Part shown: positions 6,715 to 36,934 of the stretch, piece after piece
Layout: every line of letters begins with the position of its first letter
Numbering within the stretch: the stretch's first letter is position 1
Source of the DNA: Candidatus Cloacimonadota bacterium
Lineage (GTDB): Bacteria; Cloacimonadota; Cloacimonadia; Cloacimonadales; Cloacimonadaceae
NCBI GenBank assembly: GCA_012522935.1
Contig: JAAYJN010000010.1
Coordinates: forward strand, 1-44,204
Length of the DNA: 44,204 nt
Direction: 5' to 3'
Made by a program: the position numbers and the translations under genes
The notes under the pieces: model-generated
Database searches by the model: none
Seen by the model: only the letters and a program-made list of their open reading frames with translations
What the model was told of the DNA's origin: nothing

Positions 6715-7869
6715 ATGAAAACCAAGCTTAGCTTTCGCAGAGTCATCTTGGCAGTGTTGCTAATCACCCTGTTGAATATCGCACAGGGCTGTTCCAAAGA
6801 AAAACCCGGTATTTCAAAGTATTTCCCTGTCCAAACGGAAAAATCAGGCACCTGGAATCTCATGGATATGGATGGTAACCTGATCTTGGATAAGGGCTTG
6901 GAACACAGACCAATGACTGCAACAGAAGGCATCTTTTATATTTTGAAAAAGGGAAGTTTTGAGTATTACAAGGCAGGCAAAGAGCCGCTTAAAATCGGGA
7001 CTGCATATTTTGACGGATCCATTTTTAGCGAGGGATTGGCAGCCGTGGTCCAAGGCGAAGGTGATGACGGCATCATTCAATATATCGATCACGAGGGAGT
7101 TGCCAAAATCACCCTTCACAAGCTGGATGGCATGCGGGTTACAGCCGCATCCATCTTTAGCGAAGGCATGGCATGGGTCAAAAATGAAAACGACAAATAT
7201 GGCTTTATAGACAAATCCGGCACCCTTGTGATTCCCTTCAAGTATGATTATGCGAGGCCGTTTCACGAGGGACGGGCACTGGTATCACAAGATGCGGAAT
7301 TCAGCGTCAGGACTGGATTTATTGACGCCAAGGGCGAGGAGGTGATCAAGCTGACCGATCAATACTATTATTTCGCAGATTTCCAGGAAGGATACACCAC
7401 GTTCCGCGATAATAGCAACGGCTACCATGGCACCATCGATACCACGGGCAAGATCGCAATCGATATCAATAAAGAATTCTATCATATTGGCTCATTTGTG
7501 AATGGCGTGGCAGATTTTTATGATGAAAATGCCCAAGGTCTGGCCGATACCAAAGGCAATGTGGTGGTACAGCCCAAATATGATGAAATCACATTCTTCC
7601 CCGCCGGCATCGCGGTTCGTACCGATAATAAATGCGGCGTGCTTGATTTTGAAGGGAAGGAAATCTTTGACATGACGGATCAGTATGAGAGCATAGTTCC
7701 CTGGGCTGATGGGAAATACTTGGTGAAGGATGGGAGTTTTGCTATTTTTGTGGATCAAAACGGCAAGCAAATAGGAAACGACCGTTACTACGATTTTGAT
7801 GAGCGTGGATTTTGGAGCCATATGCTTAAGACCAATGTGGATATCTACCATTCTGGCGCGGGAGAATAG
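6715..7869 (+). CDS. WG-repeat lipoprotein
   Basis: This 384-residue exported protein has no assigned biochemical role. The start is the ATG at 6715, with AAGGAG eight bases upstream; an earlier in-frame ATG at 6649 falls inside the candidate promoter. The N-terminus is a lipoprotein signal (KTKLSFRR, a hydrophobic run, then A-Q-G-C with Cys26 as the lipidation site), so it is probably anchored in the envelope. Q at position -2 of the lipobox is unusual. The rest is a chain of WG-type beta repeats, clearest in YGFIDKSGTLVIPFKYDYA followed by F-x-E-G-R-A, with related units through the protein. WG repeats are thought to mediate binding. It is a single-gene unit divergent from the restriction operon. 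Confidence 0.85.
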   Translation: MKTKLSFRRVILAVLLITLLNIAQGCSKEKPGISKYFPVQTEKSGTWNLMDMDGNLILDKGLEHRPMTATEGIFYILKKGSFEYYKAGKEPLKIGTAYFDGSIFSEGLAAVVQGEGDDGIIQYIDHEGVAKITLHKLDGMRVTAASIFSEGMAWVKNENDKYGFIDKSGTLVIPFKYDYARPFHEGRALVSQDAEFSVRTGFIDAKGEEVIKLTDQYYYFADFQEGYTTFRDNSNGYHGTIDTTGKIAIDINKEFYHIGSFVNGVADFYDENAQGLADTKGNVVVQPKYDEITFFPAGIAVRTDNKCGVLDFEGKEIFDMTDQYESIVPWADGKYLVKDGSFAIFVDQNGKQIGNDRYYDFDERGFWSHMLKTNVDIYHSGAGE

Positions 7870-16311: not shown

Positions 16312-18807
16312 TCATCCTTTCGCTGCTGCGATACTTACCATTTTGTTGGGGATCACGATTACTTTTTTTACCACGAAGCCTTCCAGGGTACGCTGGACGT
16401 TTTCCACGTTCAAGGCATGGGTCTTCAGCTCTTCTTCATCAATATCGGGCGCTACTTCCAGCTTGCCGCGCAATTTGCCATTCACCTGCACCACATAGGT
16501 GATGAGGTCGCGGGTTAGCCAGCGCTCTTCATACTGTGGCAAGCCAACCTCATGCAGCAGCTGGGTATAGCCCATCATCTCCCACAGCTCTTCGGCAATA
16601 TGGGGGGCAAAGGGATACAGCATCAGGGGGATGCTGCGGCAGGCAGAGGCAAATGTGGCAAGGGCTGCACCTTCCAAACCAGAGGGGTCTTTGATTGCCG
16701 TGCAGTGGTTAAGGTGTTCCATCACGGCGGCGATGGCGGTGTTGTATTGCATCCGCTGCAGGCTGTCATCCAGCCATTTCTTTACCGCTTGGTGGGTGCT
16801 GTAAAGCAATTCCTTATCTTTGGCATCCAGGGCTTCCAAATCCTGCTGGCTCACGGATATCTGCAGGCCTCTTTGGATGGCATCCCGGTTGCCACTGATC
16901 AAACGCCAGATACGGTTCAAAAAGCGGTAGGCACCCATGATGCCGTCGTCGCTCCATTCCACATCCTTATCTGGAGGAGAGGCAAACAACAGGAACACCC
17001 TCAGGGTATCGGCGCCAAACTTTTGGATGATATAGCTGGGATCCACCACATTGCCTTTGGATTTGCTCATCTTGGCACCGTCTTTCAGCACCATGCCCTG
17101 GGTGAGCAATCTCTGGAAGGGCTCGTCTGCTTCCAGCCATCCCAAATCACGCATGAATTTGCCGATAAAGCGCGCATACAGCAGGTGCATCACGGCATGC
17201 TCGATGCCGCCAATGTATTGATCCACCGGCATCCAATAGCTGGCTTTGGCGGGGTCAAAAGGCTGGGTGCTATTGTGAGGATCAGCATAACGCGCATAAT
17301 ACCAGGAGCTATCCACGAAGGTATCCATGGTGTCTGTCTCCCGCTGGGCATCGCCTCCACAGCCGGGGCATTTTACATTCAGCCATTCAGGCACAGAAAG
17401 CAGGGGATTGGAGGTGGTTTTGCCCACCTGCACGTTCTCTGGCAGCTCCACAGGCAGGTCTTCATCAGGAACCAGCACCACTCCACAGGAGGGGCAGTGG
17501 ATGACGGGGATGGGCGTTCCCCAATAGCGTTGACGGGAGATGCCCCAATCCCTGAGGCGATAGCTGCTGGAGACCTGTCCATAGCCTTTTTCTTCTATCA
17601 GTTTGGAGATGGCTTCCTTGGCTGCCTCGCTATCCATTCCGTCAAAGGGGGCGCTATTTGCCATGATTCCAGGCTCTATGTAGGCTTCCTCCATGGTGGC
17701 TACGTCCAGGTTTTGCTCTGGATTTTGGATCACCACCTGGATGGGAATGTCATACTTGCGGGCAAATTCAAAATCTCGCTGATCATGGGCAGGCACAGCC
17801 ATCACGGCTCCCGTGCCATAATCCATCAGCACATAATTGGTAATCCAAATCTGTATCTTGCTGCCGTTGAGGGGGTTTATGCAATGTCTGCCGCTAAAGA
17901 TGCCTTCCTTGATGGTATCAGCAGCGCTGCGGCTGATCTTGTCTTCATTTATCACTTTATCACAGAAGGCGCGCAAAGCGGTGTCTTGAGGATTCTCCGC
18001 CAGCCACTTTTGCACCAGAGGATGCTCCGGCGGCAATGCCATGAAGGTGACGCCATACACAGTATCCGGGCGGGTGGTGAATACACTGATGGGGCTGCCG
18101 TCTTCCTGGAGAGGAAAATCTATGCGCGTGCCTTCGCTCTTGCCAATCCAATGCCTTTGCATCTGTATCACGCGCTCGGGCCAATCTATCATTTTGGAAA
18201 AGTCCAACAGTTCTTCCGCATAATCCGTAATGCGAAAATACCATTGCTCCAGCTCTTTCTGATTCACCTCGCCATGACAGCGCCAACAGCGCCCTTCATC
18301 CACCTGCTCGTTTGCCAATACGGTCTGACAGGCTTCACACCAGTTTTGGAACGAACGCTTGCGATAAACCAAGCCCTTCTCGTATAGTTTCTTAAAGAGA
18401 TACTGTCCCCAGTGGTAATAATCCGGACGGCAGGTGCTCACCTCGCGCTCCCAATCCAAACCAAAGCCCATGGAGTCAAATTGACTGCGCATGGAGGCTA
18501 TGTTTTCCTCCGTGGTGATGCGGGGATGGGAGTTGTGTTCGATGGCATAGTTTTCTGCGGGCATGCCAAAGCTATCATAGCCCATGGGCTGCATCACGGC
18601 ATAGCCCTGCATCATTTTGAGGCGGGAAATGGCATCACCGATGGCATAGTTTGATGCGTGCCCGATATGTAGCACTCCAGATGGATAGGGAAACATGGAA
18701 AGCACATAATATTTAGGTTTGCCGGGCACTTCCTGGGGAGAAAATATGCGCCGTTCTTGCCATGTCTTTTGCCATTTGGGTTCGATCTTATGAAATGGAT
18801 ATTCCAT
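16312..18807 (-). CDS. leuS: Leucyl-tRNA synthetase
   Basis: This 831-residue cytosolic enzyme charges tRNA-Leu with leucine. It is a class I synthetase with HIGH (47-50) and KMSKS (579-583). The CP1 editing domain, with FTTRPDTVYG near 243-252, is present. There are two zinc-knuckle-like cysteine sets: C157/C160/C174/C177, and C438/C441 with C480/C483. The C-terminal anticodon-binding domain and the final tRNA-binding module (VQVNGKLRGKLEV) are complete. I chose the ATG at 18807, with GGAGA six bases upstream; the frame is open to an ATG at 18867 (20 more residues) but that extension lacks a ribosome-binding site and similarity to the usual N-terminus. It is transcribed with the acyl-CoA synthetase gene and divergently from the DUF1538 operon. 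Confidence 0.98.
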   Translation of the reverse strand: MEYPFHKIEPKWQKTWQERRIFSPQEVPGKPKYYVLSMFPYPSGVLHIGHASNYAIGDAISRLKMMQGYAVMQPMGYDSFGMPAENYAIEHNSHPRITTEENIASMRSQFDSMGFGLDWEREVSTCRPDYYHWGQYLFKKLYEKGLVYRKRSFQNWCEACQTVLANEQVDEGRCWRCHGEVNQKELEQWYFRITDYAEELLDFSKMIDWPERVIQMQRHWIGKSEGTRIDFPLQEDGSPISVFTTRPDTVYGVTFMALPPEHPLVQKWLAENPQDTALRAFCDKVINEDKISRSAADTIKEGIFSGRHCINPLNGSKIQIWITNYVLMDYGTGAVMAVPAHDQRDFEFARKYDIPIQVVIQNPEQNLDVATMEEAYIEPGIMANSAPFDGMDSEAAKEAISKLIEEKGYGQVSSSYRLRDWGISRQRYWGTPIPVIHCPSCGVVLVPDEDLPVELPENVQVGKTTSNPLLSVPEWLNVKCPGCGGDAQRETDTMDTFVDSSWYYARYADPHNSTQPFDPAKASYWMPVDQYIGGIEHAVMHLLYARFIGKFMRDLGWLEADEPFQRLLTQGMVLKDGAKMSKSKGNVVDPSYIIQKFGADTLRVFLLFASPPDKDVEWSDDGIMGAYRFLNRIWRLISGNRDAIQRGLQISVSQQDLEALDAKDKELLYSTHQAVKKWLDDSLQRMQYNTAIAAVMEHLNHCTAIKDPSGLEGAALATFASACRSIPLMLYPFAPHIAEELWEMMGYTQLLHEVGLPQYEERWLTRDLITYVVQVNGKLRGKLEVAPDIDEEELKTHALNVENVQRTLEGFVVKKVIVIPNKMVSIAAAKG

Positions 18808-18869
18808 TGTGTGTCTCCAGGCTGAGGCATCAAGTGCCTTATGCCATAATGATCTATGATTGAACAATC

Positions 18870-18899
18870 CATAAATTTGAAAGGCGTCTTGATGTCAAG
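18870..18899 (-). promoter_or_regulatory. Candidate leuS promoter with palindromic -35
   Basis: On the minus strand TTGACA (18893-18898) precedes TTTATG (18870-18875) by 17 bases; the -10 is weak. The -35 sits inside cttgatgtcaag (18888-18899), a perfect 5+5 palindrome that also occurs at 14310-14321 ahead of the CotH gene. No T-box or other leader structure for leuS was recognised. Confidence 0.4.
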
Positions 18900-18947
18900 C
18901 ACAATGAAAAGCTGTGCGCCGGTTATGTGATAGGCAGATTTATTTGC

Positions 18948-18977
18948 TTGACAGTATTCGCTGTATCCAAAATAAAT
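18948..18977 (+). promoter_or_regulatory. Candidate promoter of the DUF1538-PII operon
   Basis: A perfect TTGACA (18948-18953) is followed after 18 bases by ATAAAT (18972-18977). The -10 is imperfect. Transcription would start near 18984, about 40 bases before the ATG at 19024. The 216-base gap to leuS thus holds divergent promoters. Confidence 0.4.
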
Positions 18978-19023
18978 GTAGAGACTGGAAATACCCTCGA
19001 TAATACGCACTGGAGAATGACTT

Positions 19024-21159
19024 ATGAAAGCCGGAAAAGACCAGCGAGTAAAATATAATGTGAGCGCCAAAGAAGCCTTTAATCTGGTATTGCGCTATGC
19101 ACGAAAAAGAATACTGGAACAGATCAAATCTGTGGCATTGATTATCATTTATATGGTGCTGTTTCAGGTGTTGGTGCTCAAGATACCGCTGTATGATTCC
19201 GTTTTATTGGGCGTGGGCTTTACAATGGTTATCTTTGGCTTGGCTTTCTTTATGGAGGGATTGCTTTTGGGCTTGATGCCCCTGGGAGAGGTGTTGGGCA
19301 TCAGGCTGCCAGCCAAGACGAATCTGGCAACCATCCTCATCATTGGCTTTATCTTGGGCGTGGGCGCCACTTTTGCAGAGCCCGCCATCGGAGCTCTCAA
19401 AATGGCAGGCGCCAGCATCAATGCCTGGAGTTCCCCACTGCTTTTCCTCTTTCTCAATCGTTTTTCACACTACCTGGTTTATGCCATTGGCGTGGGGGTG
19501 GGCTTTGCCATGATCTTCGGCATCCTCAGGTTTCTCTACGGATGGTCTCTCAAACCTTTTATCTATATCTGTGTGCCCATCCTGCTGGCAATCTCACTTT
19601 ATGCCTATTTTGATCCCAATCTAAACCGCCTCCTGGGCTTGGCATGGGATTGCGGTGCCATCACCACCGGTCCTGTAACGGTGCCCCTCATCCTGGCAAT
19701 GGGGCTGGGCATCAGCCATGTTTCCAAGCGCAGCGGCAAAAACGACGGCAGTGGCTTTGGCGTGGTCACCCTGGCATCGCTATTCCCCATCATGGCTGTG
19801 ATCATCACAGGCTTAGCTGTATCTCCCAAGGTGCAGGAGCCGATGTCTGAAAAAGACTTTTTCGCCTATGAAAACAAAGCCAATGCCAGCTTTATCTTGG
19901 GTGGAGAGGACAAGCTGAAAGGCTATGCCCTCTGCCAAACCACTTACGATAATTATCTGCCGCTCTTTGCGAATGATGAGGCACAGTATCAGGAATTTTG
20001 TAACAGCCTGGTGCGGGATAAAGACAAGAGACTGCAGGTATTTGGCTCGGAAAACGTATTTGAGGGCTGGCTGTTGGCTCAGGAAGATCACGATCTCAAG
20101 CTACGTTATTATGGCAGCGATGCCAAGATGGAGCAAGCCTTGGAAAGGTATAATGGCAAGGGTATGGCAGATTTCAACCCTCTGGACAAGGTGAAAAAAC
20201 ACTCCCGCGATGCCGCCCAAGCCATCATTCCCCTTTCCGCATTCTTGATTCTGGTGATGTTTTTGGTGCTCAGAGAGCGCTTGCCCCGTGCCGATGAAAT
20301 CATCCTGGGGCTGGTCTTTGCCCTCTTGGGGATGGCAATCTTTAGTGGCGGCATAGAGATGGGACTTGCCAAAATAGGCGACCAGGTGGGCGCCAACCTG
20401 CCGGCATCCTACACGCGGATAGAGCTGCCCACAGAGCGCATCACCATCAAGGGCTTCAGCGATGACTTGGTAAACGAAGCCATCATGCCCGATGGGCGCA
20501 TCCAACAATTCTTTTATTTTCATCATAAAGACGACTACCTCAGGATTCCCTACCAGGCAGACAAACACAATCGGGAACTGGGAATCTATGAACACATCCC
20601 CAGCCGCGGTCCCCTGTTTGGCGCCACAGATATGAATCTGGCAGGCCTCTTGGTGGTCCTGCTCTTTGCCTTTGTGATGGGCTATGGCGCCACCTTGGCA
20701 GAGCCGGCTCTCAACGCCTTGGGCATGGCGGTGGAAGATATCACCGTGGGCACCTTCAAAAAGAAGCTGCTCATCCAGACCGTGGCGGTGGGCGTGGGCT
20801 TTGGCATCGCCTTGGGCATGGCAAAGATCATCTGGGAGCTGCCGCTCTTTTGGATGCTGGCACCCCCTTATCTGCTGCTGCTGTTTCTCTCCGCCATTTC
20901 CAGCGAGGATTTTGTGAATATCGGCTGGGATAGCGCTGGCGTCACCACGGGTCCCATCACCGTGCCCCTGGTGCTTGCCCTGGGACTGGGCGTGGGCTCG
21001 CAATTAGGCGTGGCAGAAGGCTTTGGCATCCTCTCCATGGCTTCCGTATGCCCCATCATCTCTGTGCTCACAGTGGGATTGGTGACAAATTATAGACGCA
21101 AGGCTGCCTTACGCGCCTTTGCCCGTGAAGAATCAACTGCTCTGGGGGTGGAATCATGA
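19024..21159 (+). CDS. DUF1538 family membrane transporter, internally duplicated
   Basis: This 711-residue inner-membrane protein is built of two homologous halves. The first half (about 30-270) and second half (about 400-690) share the signatures G-x-G-A-T-x-A-E-P-A (112-121 and 553-562) and T-T-G-P-[V/I]-T-V-P-L (214-222 and 641-649), each half with many hydrophobic helices. Between them (about 270-395) and again near 455-535 are polar regions likely outside the membrane core. These features identify DUF1538. I recall a DUF1538 pair (UmpA/UmpB) reported as a cation/proton antiporter, so ion transport is plausible but the substrate is not known here. The start has GGAG eight bases upstream. 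Its stop overlaps the start of the PII-like gene by 4 bp, which suggests the PII-like protein controls it. Confidence 0.88.
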   Translation: MKAGKDQRVKYNVSAKEAFNLVLRYARKRILEQIKSVALIIIYMVLFQVLVLKIPLYDSVLLGVGFTMVIFGLAFFMEGLLLGLMPLGEVLGIRLPAKTNLATILIIGFILGVGATFAEPAIGALKMAGASINAWSSPLLFLFLNRFSHYLVYAIGVGVGFAMIFGILRFLYGWSLKPFIYICVPILLAISLYAYFDPNLNRLLGLAWDCGAITTGPVTVPLILAMGLGISHVSKRSGKNDGSGFGVVTLASLFPIMAVIITGLAVSPKVQEPMSEKDFFAYENKANASFILGGEDKLKGYALCQTTYDNYLPLFANDEAQYQEFCNSLVRDKDKRLQVFGSENVFEGWLLAQEDHDLKLRYYGSDAKMEQALERYNGKGMADFNPLDKVKKHSRDAAQAIIPLSAFLILVMFLVLRERLPRADEIILGLVFALLGMAIFSGGIEMGLAKIGDQVGANLPASYTRIELPTERITIKGFSDDLVNEAIMPDGRIQQFFYFHHKDDYLRIPYQADKHNRELGIYEHIPSRGPLFGATDMNLAGLLVVLLFAFVMGYGATLAEPALNALGMAVEDITVGTFKKKLLIQTVAVGVGFGIALGMAKIIWELPLFWMLAPPYLLLLFLSAISSEDFVNIGWDSAGVTTGPITVPLVLALGLGVGSQLGVAEGFGILSMASVCPIISVLTVGLVTNYRRKAALRAFAREESTALGVES

Positions 21160-22280
21160 ACACAGCCATCAGAATCAATATCGCCATCAATAAAGCTCTC
21201 ACCCGCTCTTTGACAGAATATCTGAAAAGCCTAAACATCAGAAACATCTTTGTGGAAACAGGCAGAACCTCCACCCTCAATAACGGCACGGGCTTGTTTG
21301 GGCTGCGTCCCAAGACGCCCCTGGCTTATGACCCCGTGGAGATTGTGAGCATCTTTGTACACCAATCCCTGGAAGACGATCTGATGGCAGGCGTGTTTCA
21401 CACCCTTGATCTCAAAACCCCCGGCCGTGGCACCATCCAAAGCAGCGATATCACCATCATCAAGGCTCATCCCAGCTTCCAAATCTGCAGTCAATTACAG
21501 ATTCCCCAGCAAATACCAGCCAGTTTTTTTACAGACCTCAGGGCGATCGCCTGTGTGGTGCAGCGTGGCGAAGGCGATGCCGTGGCGCGTGTTTCTCTCA
21601 AGGCAGGCGCCAGTGTGCCCGTCACCACCTACGGCATTGGCGGAGGCGTGAGAGACAAGCTGGGGCTCTTGCGCATCACCATCCCGCCAGAAAAAGAGGT
21701 GATAGACCTCGTAATGAGCAAATACGACATCGATTCCGTGATGGAAATGTTTATTTCCGAAGCCAAGCTGGATGCACCCGGACGCGGCATAGCCTATATC
21801 CATCCCATCCGCAAAGGAACCGTGAATACCCGCATCTCCCGCAAGAGAGCCGAACAAGCCGCCAATATGGAACAGATGATCTCTGCCATTGATTCCATAG
21901 TGGGAGGCGTGGAATGGCGCAAAACCAGATTGGAACAGGAAAACACCCGCATGCGCACCTTCCTCACAGACCTCGTGGAATTGATCCTGGTCTGCAGCGA
22001 TGGCTTTGGCAAAAAGCTCAGCAAGATAGCCATGGAGAATGGAGCTTCCGGCGCCACCATCTGTAAAACAAGATATATCTATACTTCAGAAGAAGATTAC
22101 GATAGAAACCCTCCGCGGCGCGATATCAGCAAAATGATAGTATCCCCCTCCGCCGTCCCCAAAATAACCCAGGCAATCGAAGAAGCAGGCGGTTTTGAGG
22201 ATGAAGCCCAGGCTTTGCTCTACAGCCACCCGGTGTTAAAAGCCTATACATACCGGGCAAAAGAAGTAAAAAGAATATAG
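21156..22280 (+). CDS. Tandem PII-like signalling protein, partner of the DUF1538 transporter
   Basis: This 374-residue cytosolic protein appears to carry PII-like ferredoxin-fold units in tandem. Unit A (about 1-105) ends with L-K-T-P-G-R-G (86-92). Unit B (about 129-219) has V-T-T-Y-G-I-G-G-G-V-R-D-K-L-G-L-L-R-I (156-174) and ends with L-D-A-P-G-R-G-I-A-Y (205-214). Unit C (about 272-362) shows G-A-S-G-A-T (296-301) and lacks the PGRG signature. An alpha-helical linker lies around 225-270. The PGRG loops sit where PII proteins hold their nucleotide-binding B-loop. Classical PII proteins are about 112 residues and trimeric, and they gate transporters such as AmtB. Translation is coupled to the transporter gene through an ATGA overlap. 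Ligand and target are inferred, not shown. Confidence 0.8.
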   Translation: MNTAIRINIAINKALTRSLTEYLKSLNIRNIFVETGRTSTLNNGTGLFGLRPKTPLAYDPVEIVSIFVHQSLEDDLMAGVFHTLDLKTPGRGTIQSSDITIIKAHPSFQICSQLQIPQQIPASFFTDLRAIACVVQRGEGDAVARVSLKAGASVPVTTYGIGGGVRDKLGLLRITIPPEKEVIDLVMSKYDIDSVMEMFISEAKLDAPGRGIAYIHPIRKGTVNTRISRKRAEQAANMEQMISAIDSIVGGVEWRKTRLEQENTRMRTFLTDLVELILVCSDGFGKKLSKIAMENGASGATICKTRYIYTSEEDYDRNPPRRDISKMIVSPSAVPKITQAIEEAGGFEDEAQALLYSHPVLKAYTYRAKEVKRI

Positions 22281-22463: not shown

Positions 22464-22492
22464 TTGACAAAAATAATATGAATTGTTATAAG
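22464..22492 (+). promoter_or_regulatory. Strong sigma-70-type promoter of the Sel1-repeat gene
   Basis: TTGACA (22464-22469), an AT-rich 17-base spacer and TATAAG (22487-22492) make the best promoter match in the window. Predicted transcription starts near 22499, leaving a leader of only about 18 bases that is almost entirely the ribosome-binding site. This placement also rules out the upstream ATG at 22478 as a start. Confidence 0.7.
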
Positions 22493-22516
22493 TGTCCCAC
22501 CCTTAAGGAGGATATA

Positions 22517-23305
22517 ATGGATAGAATTTTTATGTTCTTATCGGTGTTGCTTGCCTGTTTTAGCGTGGCTGCTGTGCAGGCGGTGGATTATGATTCTTTC
22601 ACTCTTGAAGAGCTCTCTGTTTTGGCTTCACAAGATAACGATGCCATAGCTCAGACACATTTGGGAAAGATGTATTATTATGGTTTTGACGTGGAGCAGG
22701 ATTCCCAGGAAGCATTCAAATGGTTCTCCATGGCGGCAGATCAAAAACATCCGGAAGCCATATTCAAACTGGGTGAAATGTATATCTATGGCAATGGCGT
22801 GGAGCAAGACGAAGAAGAAGGACTCAAAAGGTATTTTTTGGCGGCCGAACTGGGTTATGACGAGGTTCAGAATCTATTGGGAATAATGTATGAAATCGGG
22901 GATATGGTGGAGCAAAGCTACGAACAAGCCTGCCATTGGTATTCCCTGGCAGCCCAGCAAGGGGATTTGGCAGCCCAATACAAGCTGGGAGAGTTGTATT
23001 ACTTTGATGATTATGATCTGCAAGATTTTGCAGAGGCTCGGAAATGGTTCCTAATGGCTGCTGATCAAGGGCTTTCGGATGCTCTATATTATTTGGGAGA
23101 AATGTATGAGCACGGCTATGGCATGGAGCCAGACATAGAAACAGCATATATGTACTATCTTCTTAGCTCGGATTACGCCAATGAGGTAGAGCTTGAAGAT
23201 TTCTTTGATGACCCTGAATTGATTAAAATAGAACTAAGCCCCCAACAACGTAAAAGGATTATCGACCAAGCCCGTGAATGGATGGAAGAAAGAGGATTTT
23301 TATAG
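22517..23305 (+). CDS. Secreted Sel1-repeat protein
   Basis: The protein is 262 residues with a signal peptide (MDRIFMFLSVLLACFSVAAVQA). It is followed by about five Sel1-type TPR-like repeats of roughly 36 residues, with the usual A-x2-x-L-G-x-M-Y-x2-G pattern and A-x2-W-x2-x-A-A-x2-G. Examples are LGKMYYYGFDVEQDSQEAFK, LGEMYIYGNGVEQDEEEGLK and LGEMYEHGYGMEPDIETAYM. Sel1 repeats form a helical solenoid for protein-protein contacts; the partner is unknown. It is acidic throughout and ends in a charged helix (RKRIIDQAREWMEER). The start at 22517 has AAGGAGG five bases upstream. It stands alone with its own strong promoter. Confidence 0.88.
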   Translation: MDRIFMFLSVLLACFSVAAVQAVDYDSFTLEELSVLASQDNDAIAQTHLGKMYYYGFDVEQDSQEAFKWFSMAADQKHPEAIFKLGEMYIYGNGVEQDEEEGLKRYFLAAELGYDEVQNLLGIMYEIGDMVEQSYEQACHWYSLAAQQGDLAAQYKLGELYYFDDYDLQDFAEARKWFLMAADQGLSDALYYLGEMYEHGYGMEPDIETAYMYYLLSSDYANEVELEDFFDDPELIKIELSPQQRKRIIDQAREWMEERGFL

Positions 23306-23383
23306 GTTCCAGAAGCTTTCCACCTAAACAGGTTTCAGGTGCCAGGTTTCAGTGCAGCGGCGAAACGCCGCTCTCCTCTGACA

Positions 23384-23446
23384 CCTGCTCGCGCAGCGAG
23401 CTCCTTAAAGAGTCTCGGAAGAGTCGATATTTCCGGTCAACTCCTG
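23384..23446. repeat. Composite intergenic repeat, copy 2
   Basis: This copy repeats ctgctcgcgcagcgagctcc exactly as at 38-57, followed directly by a block starting taaagagtctcgg and ending ggtcaactcctg that matches 109-147 with a few substitutions. It contains the gctcgc-gca-gcgagc hairpin. Confidence 0.65.
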
Positions 23447-23471
23447 CTGTCCCCTGTCCCCTGGGCGCTTC

Positions 23472-23538
23472 GCGCCCATTAGCCACCCTTGTCTCACCCT
23501 TGCTTAGACAAAGGAGAGACAAGGGTGGTTAACAGGGA
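23472..23538. repeat. Inverted-repeat element (gcgcccattagcc ... gggtggttaacaggga), copy 1
   Basis: A perfect 13-bp inverted repeat (ccacccttgtctc at 23483-23495 with gagacaagggtgg at 23516-23528) is bounded by gcgcccattagcc on the left and gggtggttaacagggaag on the right. The same boundaries occur at 39569-39647. The stem extends with one mismatch into tta/taa. It resembles a small non-autonomous mobile or REP-like element, but no target-site duplication could be confirmed. Confidence 0.6.
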
Positions 23539-23760
23539 AGAAGGCCGCAAGATGGCACCAAAATCCCTCCCCGCTTTCTTTTTGATTGTATTTCCCTCAC
23601 GGAGTGTCTCATTTTTCGCTTGCCTAAATTGTCTGTGAAAAAATAGTGGATTTCAATGTGAAAAACAGTGCAGGGTTTGCCTGCCCTATTGGTAATATAA
23701 CAAAAGAATATCCTTGGCAAAGCTTCTTGTATATTAGCTTTTTGCCATATTAGGGGAAAG

Positions 23761-25005
23761 ATGAAACGACTTTTAATACTACTCTTGGCTTTACCGCTTG
23801 TGCTGATGGCGCAAGAGTATAGCCTGGATGAACTCATCGAACAAGGCATGCAAAATGGATGGGATGCTCAGCGCAGTCAACTGCAATTGGAGAGCAGTGC
23901 CTCCCAATTGAGCAGTGCCACTTGGAATCTGATACCGGATGCGGATTTGAGCTATGGCTTAAATTATGATCTGCATAACAAGGGCACGGGTGCAGACCTC
24001 ACCAATAGCTTCAGATTCAGCATCAGCAAGACGATCAGCCTCAATGACGCCGCTTGGTTCAACTACAAGCAGGCAAAGATAGGCAAAGACAAGGCGGAGC
24101 TCACCTATGAAAGCTCCATCTCCGCCTATGCTTTCAGCGTGTTTGAGGCATATCTGAAGGTATTGAGCGCCCAAAAGCAACTGGTTTCCCTGCAGGAAAA
24201 CCTGGCGATTCAAACCCGCGTGTGGCAACAGGCGCAGGTATTGAGGCAATTGGGCAAGAATACGGAATTTGACGTAAAGCAAAGCGAAATTGCCGTGATG
24301 AATTCCAATATCAGCATCATGCAGTTGGAAAATACCATCCGCTCCAATCGCGAGCAGCTCTTTGGCTTGGTTCAGGTAGAGGATGAGGGTTATCCCTTGA
24401 CAGACCTGGAGGCGGCAGAGGACTATCAAATCCCAGAGCTTGATCCCGATAGCATCAACCAAATCAGAATCCTCAAGGAAGAGATCAGAAGCACAAATCT
24501 GAGCCAAAAGCAGAGTTCCTTGGGTTTTTGGCCCCATCTGAGCCTGAATTACAGCCTGGTGCGCAACGCCGGCGGTGATAATTTTGCCTTTGATAGATAC
24601 AGCACCAATCATGGCGTATCCCTCAATCTCAGCTATTCCCTGTGGAATTACTTCCGGCAGGGAAGCAGCCACAAGCGCAGCAATATCAGCCTGCGCATGG
24701 CAGAGCTCTCACTTTTGGACAAAGTGGATGACATCCGCCGCCAATATCAAAACGCCAGTCAGGAGCTGGAATATCTGATCCGCCTGGATGAATTGTATCA
24801 GGAAAAGCTGGATCAATCCAGCCGTCAGATCAATATCGCCGAAGAGCGCTACCGCCTGGGGCTGATCGACCTCTTGGAACTGGATAAGACCCGCACCGAT
24901 TATATCGATGCCGATATTGCATACAACGCCAATCGTTATCAGATCTTGGCAAAGCAGGAAAGCCTGAACTTTCTTTTGTCTCAAAAAATCCTTGGAAAAT
25001 GGTAG
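23761..25005 (+). CDS. TolC-family outer-membrane channel
   Basis: The protein is 414 residues with a signal peptide (MKRLLILLLALPLVLMA). It has two similar halves of long amphipathic helices separated by short beta strands, as in outer-membrane efflux proteins; V-x-V-L-x-A-Q-K and RYRLGLIDLLELDKTRTDYIDA are typical TolC helix signatures. It is shorter than E. coli TolC, as is common in this group. It would form the trimeric outer-membrane exit duct for the adaptor and ABC transporter encoded next to it. The start follows AGGGGAAAG closely. Its stop overlaps the region upstream of the adaptor gene, so the two are co-transcribed. The exported substrate cannot be told from sequence. Confidence 0.9.
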   Translation: MKRLLILLLALPLVLMAQEYSLDELIEQGMQNGWDAQRSQLQLESSASQLSSATWNLIPDADLSYGLNYDLHNKGTGADLTNSFRFSISKTISLNDAAWFNYKQAKIGKDKAELTYESSISAYAFSVFEAYLKVLSAQKQLVSLQENLAIQTRVWQQAQVLRQLGKNTEFDVKQSEIAVMNSNISIMQLENTIRSNREQLFGLVQVEDEGYPLTDLEAAEDYQIPELDPDSINQIRILKEEIRSTNLSQKQSSLGFWPHLSLNYSLVRNAGGDNFAFDRYSTNHGVSLNLSYSLWNYFRQGSSHKRSNISLRMAELSLLDKVDDIRRQYQNASQELEYLIRLDELYQEKLDQSSRQINIAEERYRLGLIDLLELDKTRTDYIDADIAYNANRYQILAKQESLNFLLSQKILGKW

Positions 25006-25019
25006 GAGCCATACAACAA

Positions 25020-26417
25020 ATGAAAAAATATATCAAATACATCGTCATTGCCATCATCCTCATCGCCGTCATCTTTGGCTATATGAGCTGTCGCAAAAAG
25101 AAAAACCGCCCGGAATGGCGTACAGACACCACGTCATTTGGCAATATCCGCGAAGTGGTTACCGCCACTGGCTCGCTTAATCCCTATGTTTTGGTGGAAG
25201 TGGGTACAGAGGTATCCGGAAAGATAGAAAAACTTTACAAAGACTTTAATGATAATGTGAAAAGGGGAGAGCTTTTGGCAACCCTGGATACGGAACTGCT
25301 GAGAACAGCATTGGAATCCTCACGAGCCGAACTCACCAAAGCACAGACCTCACAGGCAGAGGCAAAGCTGGATCATGACAACCTTGTGGAACTGGTAAAA
25401 CACGGCATGGCAGCGGAATATGAATTGAGGAAAGCGGAATTTCGCATGCAACAAGCCCAGCAAAGCCTTGCCACTGCCAGATTGAACCTGCAGCGCGCCC
25501 AAAAGAACCTGGATAATGCCTATATCAAATCACCCATCGATGGCGTGATCGTGGGACGCAGCGTGGACGAAGGGCAGACCGTGGCTGCCAGCCTGAATGC
25601 ACCCACCCTCTTCAAAATAGCCAACAACCTGGATAAAATGCAAATCACTGCCAACGTGGACGAAGCCGATATCGGCAGGATAAAAGTGGGCTTGCCCGTG
25701 GAATTTAGCGTGGATGCCTATACCACGATGGCTTTTACGGGTGAAGTGCAACAGATTCGCCTCAATCCTGTCACAGAGCAAAACGTGGTGAGCTATAGCG
25801 TGATCATCGATGCAGACAATCCCGGACGCGTGCTTTTGCCCGGAATGACCACCAACGTCACCATCATCGTCAAATCCCGTGAAAACGCGATGCGCATCCC
25901 TGAAACTGCCACCCGCTTTCGTGCTTCCAATGAATTGTGGAGCCTCTTTGGGCTGAAATGGGATGATGAATCGATGCAAAAAGAGCGTGAAAAGGCGATG
26001 GAAGAATTGCAGAAAGAGATTGCAAGCGCACGTGAAGCCCAGAGCGAAAATGCCCCGGACAATGGCGCCGCCAAGGCAGATCAAGGCGAATCTGCACCGC
26101 GCATGGGCAGGGGCGGCGGACAGGGCAGACAAGGCGGTCAGGGCGGCATGCAAGCACCTGGCGGTGGAATGCCCCCAGGCGGCCCCGGCATGATGGGCAT
26201 GGGAGGCCGCGGCACCTCAATGGCATCGGTCTGGATTCTGAAAAATGATAAACCCGAGCTGCGCATGGTGCAGACAGGCATCTCCGATGGAGCCTTTGTG
26301 GAAGTAATTTCCGGCATCAAGGAAGGTGAAACCCTGATCAGCGGCGTGGTGTATAAGAATTCCAAGCAGGCCTCTCAGAGCAGTCCCATGGGCGGCCCTG
26401 GAATGAGAAGGTTCTAA
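25020..26417 (+). CDS. MacA-like periplasmic adaptor (HlyD/RND family)
   Basis: The protein is 465 residues. An N-terminal membrane anchor (about 4-23) is followed by a barrel-sandwich/lipoyl half (VGTEVSGKIEKLYKDFNDNV, 61-80), an alpha-hairpin (about 90-165), the second lipoyl half (YIKSPIDGVIVGRSVDEGQTV, split by a short turn, 168-188), a beta-barrel (about 200-285) and a membrane-proximal domain. It should bridge the TolC-like channel and the MacB-type transporter. Odd feature: a helical charged stretch (about 316-342) and a Gly/Gln/Met/Pro-rich low-complexity segment (361-399) interrupt the membrane-proximal domain, and the C-terminus is also Gly/Met-rich. I chose the ATG at 25020 (AGGAG 11 bases upstream, lysines before the anchor); an ATG at 24999 would overlap the previous gene by seven bases and is possible. 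Confidence 0.9.
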   Translation: MKKYIKYIVIAIILIAVIFGYMSCRKKKNRPEWRTDTTSFGNIREVVTATGSLNPYVLVEVGTEVSGKIEKLYKDFNDNVKRGELLATLDTELLRTALESSRAELTKAQTSQAEAKLDHDNLVELVKHGMAAEYELRKAEFRMQQAQQSLATARLNLQRAQKNLDNAYIKSPIDGVIVGRSVDEGQTVAASLNAPTLFKIANNLDKMQITANVDEADIGRIKVGLPVEFSVDAYTTMAFTGEVQQIRLNPVTEQNVVSYSVIIDADNPGRVLLPGMTTNVTIIVKSRENAMRIPETATRFRASNELWSLFGLKWDDESMQKEREKAMEELQKEIASAREAQSENAPDNGAAKADQGESAPRMGRGGGQGRQGGQGGMQAPGGGMPPGGPGMMGMGGRGTSMASVWILKNDKPELRMVQTGISDGAFVEVISGIKEGETLISGVVYKNSKQASQSSPMGGPGMRRF

Positions 26418-36772: not shown

Positions 36773-36849
<77 letters not shown>

Positions 36850-36857
36850 CCGTTAAT

Positions 36858-36934
36858 GGGTGATTAGCTCAGCTGGTTAGAGCGCTACGTTCACATCGTA
36901 GAGGTCACTGGTTCGAATCCAGTATCACCCACCA
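36858..36934 (+). tRNA. tRNA-Val (anticodon CAC)
   Basis: This 77-base cloverleaf is nearly identical to the preceding tRNA and starts eight bases after it. The anticodon loop is ttcacat (anticodon CAC, reading GUG). The acceptor stem gggtgat/atcaccc pairs perfectly and CCA is encoded. A run of seven T follows at 36936-36942, which may end transcription of the pair. The two genes look like a tandem duplication with diverged anticodons. Confidence 0.95.

Follow-up and report, generated by a model that had tools for sequence, protein, structure and literature searches.

In the 44,204-nucleotide stretch of a Candidatus Cloacimonadota genome analyzed here (the window), a gene for a two-half membrane protein of the DUF1538 family overlaps a gene for a protein built from three PII-like units, and this pairing was found to be conserved in more than 10 phyla. 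We consider it fairly likely, with a probability of roughly 0.6, that the two genes encode one functional unit composed of a DUF1538 monovalent-cation/H+ antiporter and a dedicated, ligand-dependent regulator of the PII family. The observation made in the initial annotation of this DNA was confirmed, and its interpretation is partly supported, with the support applying to the pairing.

The DUF1538 gene (711 aa; 19024..21159, plus strand), identified by its open reading frame, PF07556 matches and an AlphaFold2 model, and the gene for the PII-like protein (374 aa; 21156..22280, plus strand), identified by family alignment, a unit profile, AlphaFold2 and Foldseek, share the four nucleotides ATGA at 21156..21159 of the plus strand, which contain the stop codon of the former and the start codon of the latter. 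This overlap, already described in the initial annotation, makes translational coupling of the two genes probable; inspection of the sequence revealed a G-rich, ribosome-binding-like stretch just 5' of it, and the locus survey contained 23 loci at which the paired genes overlap by 4 bp. The orientation divergent from leuS was likewise as described, with the leuS start codon at 18807 on the minus strand and an intergenic region of 216 bp (18808..19023) extending to the DUF1538 gene. The promoter that had been postulated for the two-gene unit itself did not stand out in the sequence, since the gap contains no more promoter-like matches than shuffled sequence (six vs 4.3 +/- 2.5 expected) and the one weak match at 18877-18905 was not above chance. 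Rfam revealed no riboswitch or other RNA element at the pair, its matches in the window being limited to two tRNAs at 36.8-36.9 kb. The neighboring genes encode an AMP-binding enzyme, LeuS, a Sel1-repeat protein, a TolC-like OEP and HlyD, in agreement with the earlier statement that the pair has no nitrogen-metabolism neighbor.

The survey of DUF1538 genes that had been proposed along with the original observation revealed a PII-like gene directly after the DUF1538 gene at 110 of the 111 distinct loci that could be evaluated (one duplicate removed) from more than 10 phyla. An absence of conserved adjacency, named at the time as grounds for abandoning the idea, was therefore not observed, because the pair is conserved, and usually overlapping, in many phyla. 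Among 125 Cloacimonadota genomes, DUF1538 was present above the cut-off in 15 and the PII-like gene in the same 15 (Fisher p about 1e-19, relatedness ignored), and the two genes were adjacent at all 17 Cloacimonadota loci, window included. Short peptide patterns, searched for in 84,980 species genomes, yielded 43 loci, six of which were repeated Cloacimonadota loci, and the remaining 37 comprised 35 with an adjoining PII-like gene, one at a contig edge and one lacking the partner (35/36 evaluable). The exception was L072 of the Erysipelotrichales. The samples of Gammaproteobacteria and Bacillota were drawn without regard to neighbors and the 30 best-scoring loci of each were examined; the pair was present at all 29 evaluable gammaproteobacterial loci, the remaining one being located at a contig edge, and at all 30 loci from Bacillota. 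On plasmids of Methylocystis, Paraclostridium, Chelativorans and Peptoclostridium, DUF1538 is followed by a gene annotated as "P-II family nitrogen regulator". Crp-like regulators upstream of the pair were seen at two Clostridiales loci only. Three weak DUF1538-like matches (G092, G095 and G100; 18-20 bits, below the cut-off) had no PII-like gene nearby and were not counted.

The pairing is thus not a product of chance. Since the flanking genes are not conserved, with none of the 119 Pfam families among 78 neighbors occurring in more than two and no conserved third gene, it is the two-gene unit that constitutes the conserved entity. Mere co-transcription of two genes, with the PII-like protein acting elsewhere on transcription or metabolism, would be a very improbable explanation for a strict one-to-one co-occurrence in Cloacimonadota, for the absence of a shared third gene and for the co-variation of the two architectures detailed below.

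The DUF1538 protein contains two PF07556 domains (193 and 176 bits vs a cut-off of 22.6; E=6.7e-108 in Pfam). When compared to the equivalog models for UmpA (NF041627) and UmpB (NF041628), it reached 206 vs 490 and 160 vs 500 bits, respectively, and remained below both cut-offs, which characterizes it at the sequence level as a distant homologue of the UmpA and UmpB halves and not as an equivalog. UmpAB of Halomonas zhaodongensis, a heterodimeric two-component Na+(Li+,K+)/H+ antiporter (PMC5484666), was the sole characterized DUF1538 pair that we found, and its description is the antiport report to which the initial annotation referred. UmpAB and the window protein share the PF07556 family, two homologous halves and conserved Glu and Asp residues in the membrane, while the latter differs in being a single fused chain with two inserts, in scoring below the equivalog cut-offs and in having a three-unit PII partner. 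The other gammaproteobacterial pairs of UmpA-UmpB type in the survey have a single-unit PII gene next in line, and no gammaproteobacterial locus in the sample scored above the UmpA equivalog cut-off. Because the scores of the window protein are so far below those of the equivalogs, we infer its putative antiport activity by homology.

AlphaFold2 gave a model of the DUF1538 protein with pLDDT 88 and pTM 0.87. In an alignment of 50 relatives, four acidic residues within the membrane are invariant (E119, D209, E560 and D636), corresponding to one Glu (FAEP motif) and one Asp (WDxG motif) in each half; the UmpA-type alignment likewise shows E153/D240. As judged from the alignment, an invariant Glu and Asp per half is the pattern expected of cation/H+ exchange. 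Loop charges predict a topology in which both termini and the short basic loops face the inside and the two inserts the outside. The first, an inter-half insert (aa ~270-384; 19831..20175, plus strand), is mostly helical by its secondary structure and predicted from loop charges to be extracytoplasmic. The second (aa ~463-538; 20410..20637, plus strand) contains beta structure, is likewise predicted from loop charges to be extracytoplasmic, and is present in most, but not all, members with a three-unit partner. A Foldseek search with the AlphaFold2 model returned no PDB match at E<=0.001, so no transport mechanism can be transferred by structure. The fold without a PDB match and the distance to UmpAB, the single family member assayed so far (PMC5484666), leave some room for a different main substrate, another small ion or a metabolite, with antiport occurring only upon overexpression and the PII-like protein reporting on that metabolite. 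We regard this as a minority possibility, against which stand the direct antiport data for UmpAB and the invariant membrane Glu and Asp of each half.

The downstream protein is not recognizable as a PII protein by family models alone, as it matched neither Pfam (PF00543 included) nor NCBIfam. Family alignment, unit profile and AlphaFold2 all divide it into three units (residues about 1-105, 126-226 and 269-366), which agrees with its earlier description as a multi-unit PII-like protein and makes it a case that is invisible to Pfam. In the AlphaFold2 model, based on an alignment of 41 relatives, each unit adopts a beta-alpha-beta-beta-alpha-beta fold (pLDDT 87, pTM 0.86), and the high pTM indicates a defined mutual arrangement of the three; the fused units would probably form a threefold pseudo-trimer. 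In Foldseek, one unit matched numerous PII proteins of solved structure (probability 1.00, TM about 0.7 by target, about 2 A at best), and the three-unit arrangement had no counterpart among solved structures, whole-chain matches having a TM of about 0.2. Only the middle unit matched PII proteins by phmmer (plant PII 4ush, E=4e-4). In the unit profile, one strong unit (about 110 bits) was accompanied in most of the long relatives by one or two weak ones. PF00543 was matched by 20 of 41 three-unit relatives at E<=0.01, and all four of the one- and two-unit relatives tested exceeded the Pfam P-II cut-off.

Closer examination of the three units revealed very uneven conservation, dominated by unit 2 and the helical linker that follows it. 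Unit 1 (aa 1-105; 21156..21470, plus strand) retains the fold, the PGxG B-loop motif and R37 across relatives and is otherwise degenerate. Unit 2 (aa 126-226; 21531..21833, plus strand), the one closest to single-unit relatives, has 35 positions conserved in >=70% of sequences and carries the motifs GxGxRDxLGLLRITxxxEKE and LDxPGxG. The linker between units 2 and 3 (aa 227-268; 21834..21959, plus strand) is conserved at A236, Q240, A244, D246, G250, W254 and R255, with D246, W254 and R255 being invariant, while unit 3 (aa 269-366; 21960..22253, plus strand) keeps the fold and a GAxGAT motif and lacks the GxG of the B-loop (PGxG in unit 1). Judging from this conservation pattern, the chain is not a set of three equal sensors.

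The number of PII units co-varies with the architecture of the transporter. Split or compact DUF1538 proteins are accompanied by one PII, two separate PIIs or one two-unit PII, and long fused DUF1538 proteins by a three-unit PII. In the DUF1538 tree, after correction of one contig-truncated row, the three-unit state formed one clade derived by a single change, which spans Cloacimonadota, Verrucomicrobiota, Planctomycetota, Bacteroidota, Pseudomonadota, Thermodesulfobacteriota, Myxococcota, Spirochaetota, Gemmatimonadota, Zixibacteria and Latescibacterota. The inter-half insert was present in all 41 aligned DUF1538 relatives with a three-unit PII vs none of the nine others, the inter-half segment measuring 70-202 residues in the former and 21-32 in the latter. 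With a single change in the tree and this distribution of the insert, the three-unit sensor and the extracytoplasmic insert arose on the same branch.

A near-invariant pairing in which unit number tracks transporter architecture is also what a constitutive structural subunit would produce, i.e. a cytosolic cap that serves assembly or efficient transport and is not a ligand switch. Membrane proteins with a PII-like cytosolic part are known from Bacillus subtilis (AexB, YvjA) and Borrelia (BB0017, DUF2179) (PMC13170310, PMC6516651), and the AexB cap increases transport efficiency (PMC13170310); in these proteins membrane part and PII-like domain form one chain, whereas in the window the PII-like protein has a gene of its own. 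We nevertheless consider a purely structural role unlikely, as unit 2 is strongly conserved at T-loop and B-loop positions, the ligand sites of PII proteins, the Erysipelotrichales locus has DUF1538 without a partner, and UmpAB was functional in E. coli from plasmids that bore umpA and umpB alone and no PII gene (PMC5484666). Since UmpAB functions from such a clone, transport does not require the PII partner, and a regulatory, most likely inhibitory, role is therefore the simplest reading. By analogy, the PII-like protein would probably be an inhibitory regulator like GlnK and SbtB, with the qualification that the E. coli host of the UmpAB assays presumably contained PII proteins of its own.

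Classical nitrogen control was considered as the context of this regulation and rejected. The window genome (94% complete) contains no PF00543 match and no Amt ammonium transporter, and for this reason the pair is not part of classical nitrogen control; no nitrogen-related neighbors are shared among the loci either. Canonical PII is scarce in Cloacimonadota as a whole, with 55 of 59 sampled genomes lacking a match and only two exceeding the cut-off.

In canonical PII proteins, ATP is bound by K90, R101 and R103 (E. coli numbering). Alignments to PII chains and within the single-unit family revealed that the equivalents of these residues are not conserved in the PII-like family, while the B-loop glycines are kept. 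The window protein therefore resembles canonical PII (GlnB/GlnK) and NifI in its unit fold and the GxG of the B-loop and differs from them in its three fused units, their unequal conservation and the lack of the three ATP ligands. The inter-strand loop of unit 2 (residues 164-178) comprises 15 residues, is shorter than a canonical T-loop and contains no tyrosine, so that the uridylylation tyrosine of canonical PII is absent from it. With the ATP ligands not conserved and the inter-strand loop short, plugging of the transporter in the manner of GlnK cannot simply be assumed. PDB entry 9p1x, with two PII chains, was evaluated as a candidate match to the DUF1538-PII pair and set aside, since the match was weak (E=0.24 for a single-unit relative) and no accompanying paper was found.

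Cyclic di-AMP controls K+ transport in other bacteria, and a PII-like protein acting as its receptor, as DarA/PstA do, would link K+/Na+ antiport to a K+ second messenger. A diadenylate cyclase is indeed encoded in the window genome and in 111 of 125 Cloacimonadota genomes, a distribution so close to universal that it does not track the pair. The cyclase was undetected in 10 of 32 genomes with DUF1538 loci, some of which may be incomplete and one of which is that of cultured Sinimarinibacterium, which has the pair. Cyclic di-AMP is thus disfavored as the general ligand, and a receptor function of this kind seems quite improbable.

In the reading we prefer, that of an antiporter with its own ligand-dependent PII regulator, DUF1538 would be a two-half secondary transporter, most likely exchanging monovalent cations for H+ like UmpAB. 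The PII-like protein, made together with the transporter, would dock on its cytoplasmic face and lower or lock transport in response to a small ligand from the cytosol, for which an adenine nucleotide is the probable candidate. Members of the PII superfamily are homotrimers that bind their ligands at the boundaries of the subunits. The three units of a PII trimer, fused and diverged in the window protein, would form the probable pseudo-trimer with one main ligand site centered on unit 2.

GlnK-AmtB and SbtB-SbtA would serve as models for such control. GlnK inhibits AmtB by direct binding (PMC10710835), and the cyanobacterial PII-like protein SbtB binds and inhibits the bicarbonate transporter SbtA in a nucleotide-dependent manner (PMC8352866). 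As in the window, the genes for the transporter AmtB and the PII-family protein GlnK are neighbors, although the transporters are unrelated, and the partner found here is a single chain of three units without a canonical T-loop in a genome devoid of Amt and canonical PII. The amtB-glnK-like logic initially proposed stands in part: given the conserved pair, and by analogy to these systems, a PII-regulated kind of transporter is the best reading, while the gene order is reversed, with the transporter gene first in the window and glnK-amtB in E. coli. SbtA-SbtB shares with the window pair a PII-like protein that acts outside nitrogen control and is encoded with a transporter; SbtB differs in being a single-unit homotrimer with a long T-loop, and SbtA belongs to an unrelated transporter family.

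The open-access papers mentioning DUF1538 that were examined contained no description of a DUF1538-PII pairing and no binding, structural or transport data for such pairs; DUF1538 does appear among the key genes of a growth-pH predictor (PMC13255231). As databases already annotate the neighboring genes one by one, what is new is that the two genes are recognized as one conserved unit and that the PII-like partner has a form with three units. A more far-reaching proposal, possible but tentative, is that DUF1538 represents a structurally new class of cation antiporters controlled as a rule by its own branch of PII proteins, and that in the lineage seen here the PII trimer has been fused into one asymmetric chain, which has one principal ligand site and co-evolved with the extracytoplasmic insert.

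The adjacency of DUF1538 and PII-like genes points to a switch, so far overlooked, by which ion transport would be adjusted to the metabolic state of the cell. DUF1538 was found in about one third of the sampled genomes of Gammaproteobacteria (76/229) and Bacillota (101/300), but assays are available for a single pair, expressed from a clone lacking the PII gene. Should the pairing prove functional, previously undescribed metabolite control would act on a widespread class of ion/proton exchangers, cells without canonical PII would still use a PII protein, and PII signaling would reach pH and salt homeostasis. The forms with one, two and three units that occur in nature would reveal how a PII trimer turns into a single chain and which of its ligand sites are retained.

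The window genome, which is 94% complete, gave no match in profile searches for either canonical PII (PF00543) or the ammonium transporter (PF00909), a combined absence that is unusual among bacteria. Matches to PF00543 were likewise absent from 55 of the 59 genomes in the phylum sample. The segment directly downstream of the DUF1538-PII unit (22478-26417) encodes a Sel1-repeat protein and, after it, efflux proteins of the TolC-like (OEP) and HlyD types. Two adjacent tRNA genes are located on the forward strand at 36773-36931.

Among the DUF1538 loci surveyed in other genomes, two, each from a Clostridiales genome, had a gene for a Crp-like regulator immediately upstream of the DUF1538-PII unit (L070, 403-1065; L071, 4240-4902); this regulator contains a cyclic-nucleotide-binding domain. 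At locus L075, the single-unit PII gene was followed by another short gene (about 6850-7240), whose 127-aa product, judged by eye, is possibly a degenerate PII-like unit.

On Methylocystis rosea plasmid pGW6_2 (L111), IS66 transposon genes flanked the unit of split DUF1538 pair and single-unit PII at either end, and this unit may move between replicons. Compact DUF1538-PII units were present in a Cloacimonadota bin (L032/L068) and a Treponema bin (L069), both derived from sample Th196P3, and their DUF1538 proteins were 73% identical, a likeness that may reflect either horizontal transfer or binning error.

The DUF1538 protein of the window (19024-21159, forward strand) carries two inserts that are predicted to be extracytoplasmic. 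The first (19831-20175) accompanied three-unit PII in all members of the alignment, while the second (20410-20637) was missing from one three-unit subclade. The AlphaFold2 model of this protein reached a pTM of 0.87, and since a Foldseek search of the model against the PDB returned no match at E<=0.001, DUF1538 possibly represents a new transporter fold.
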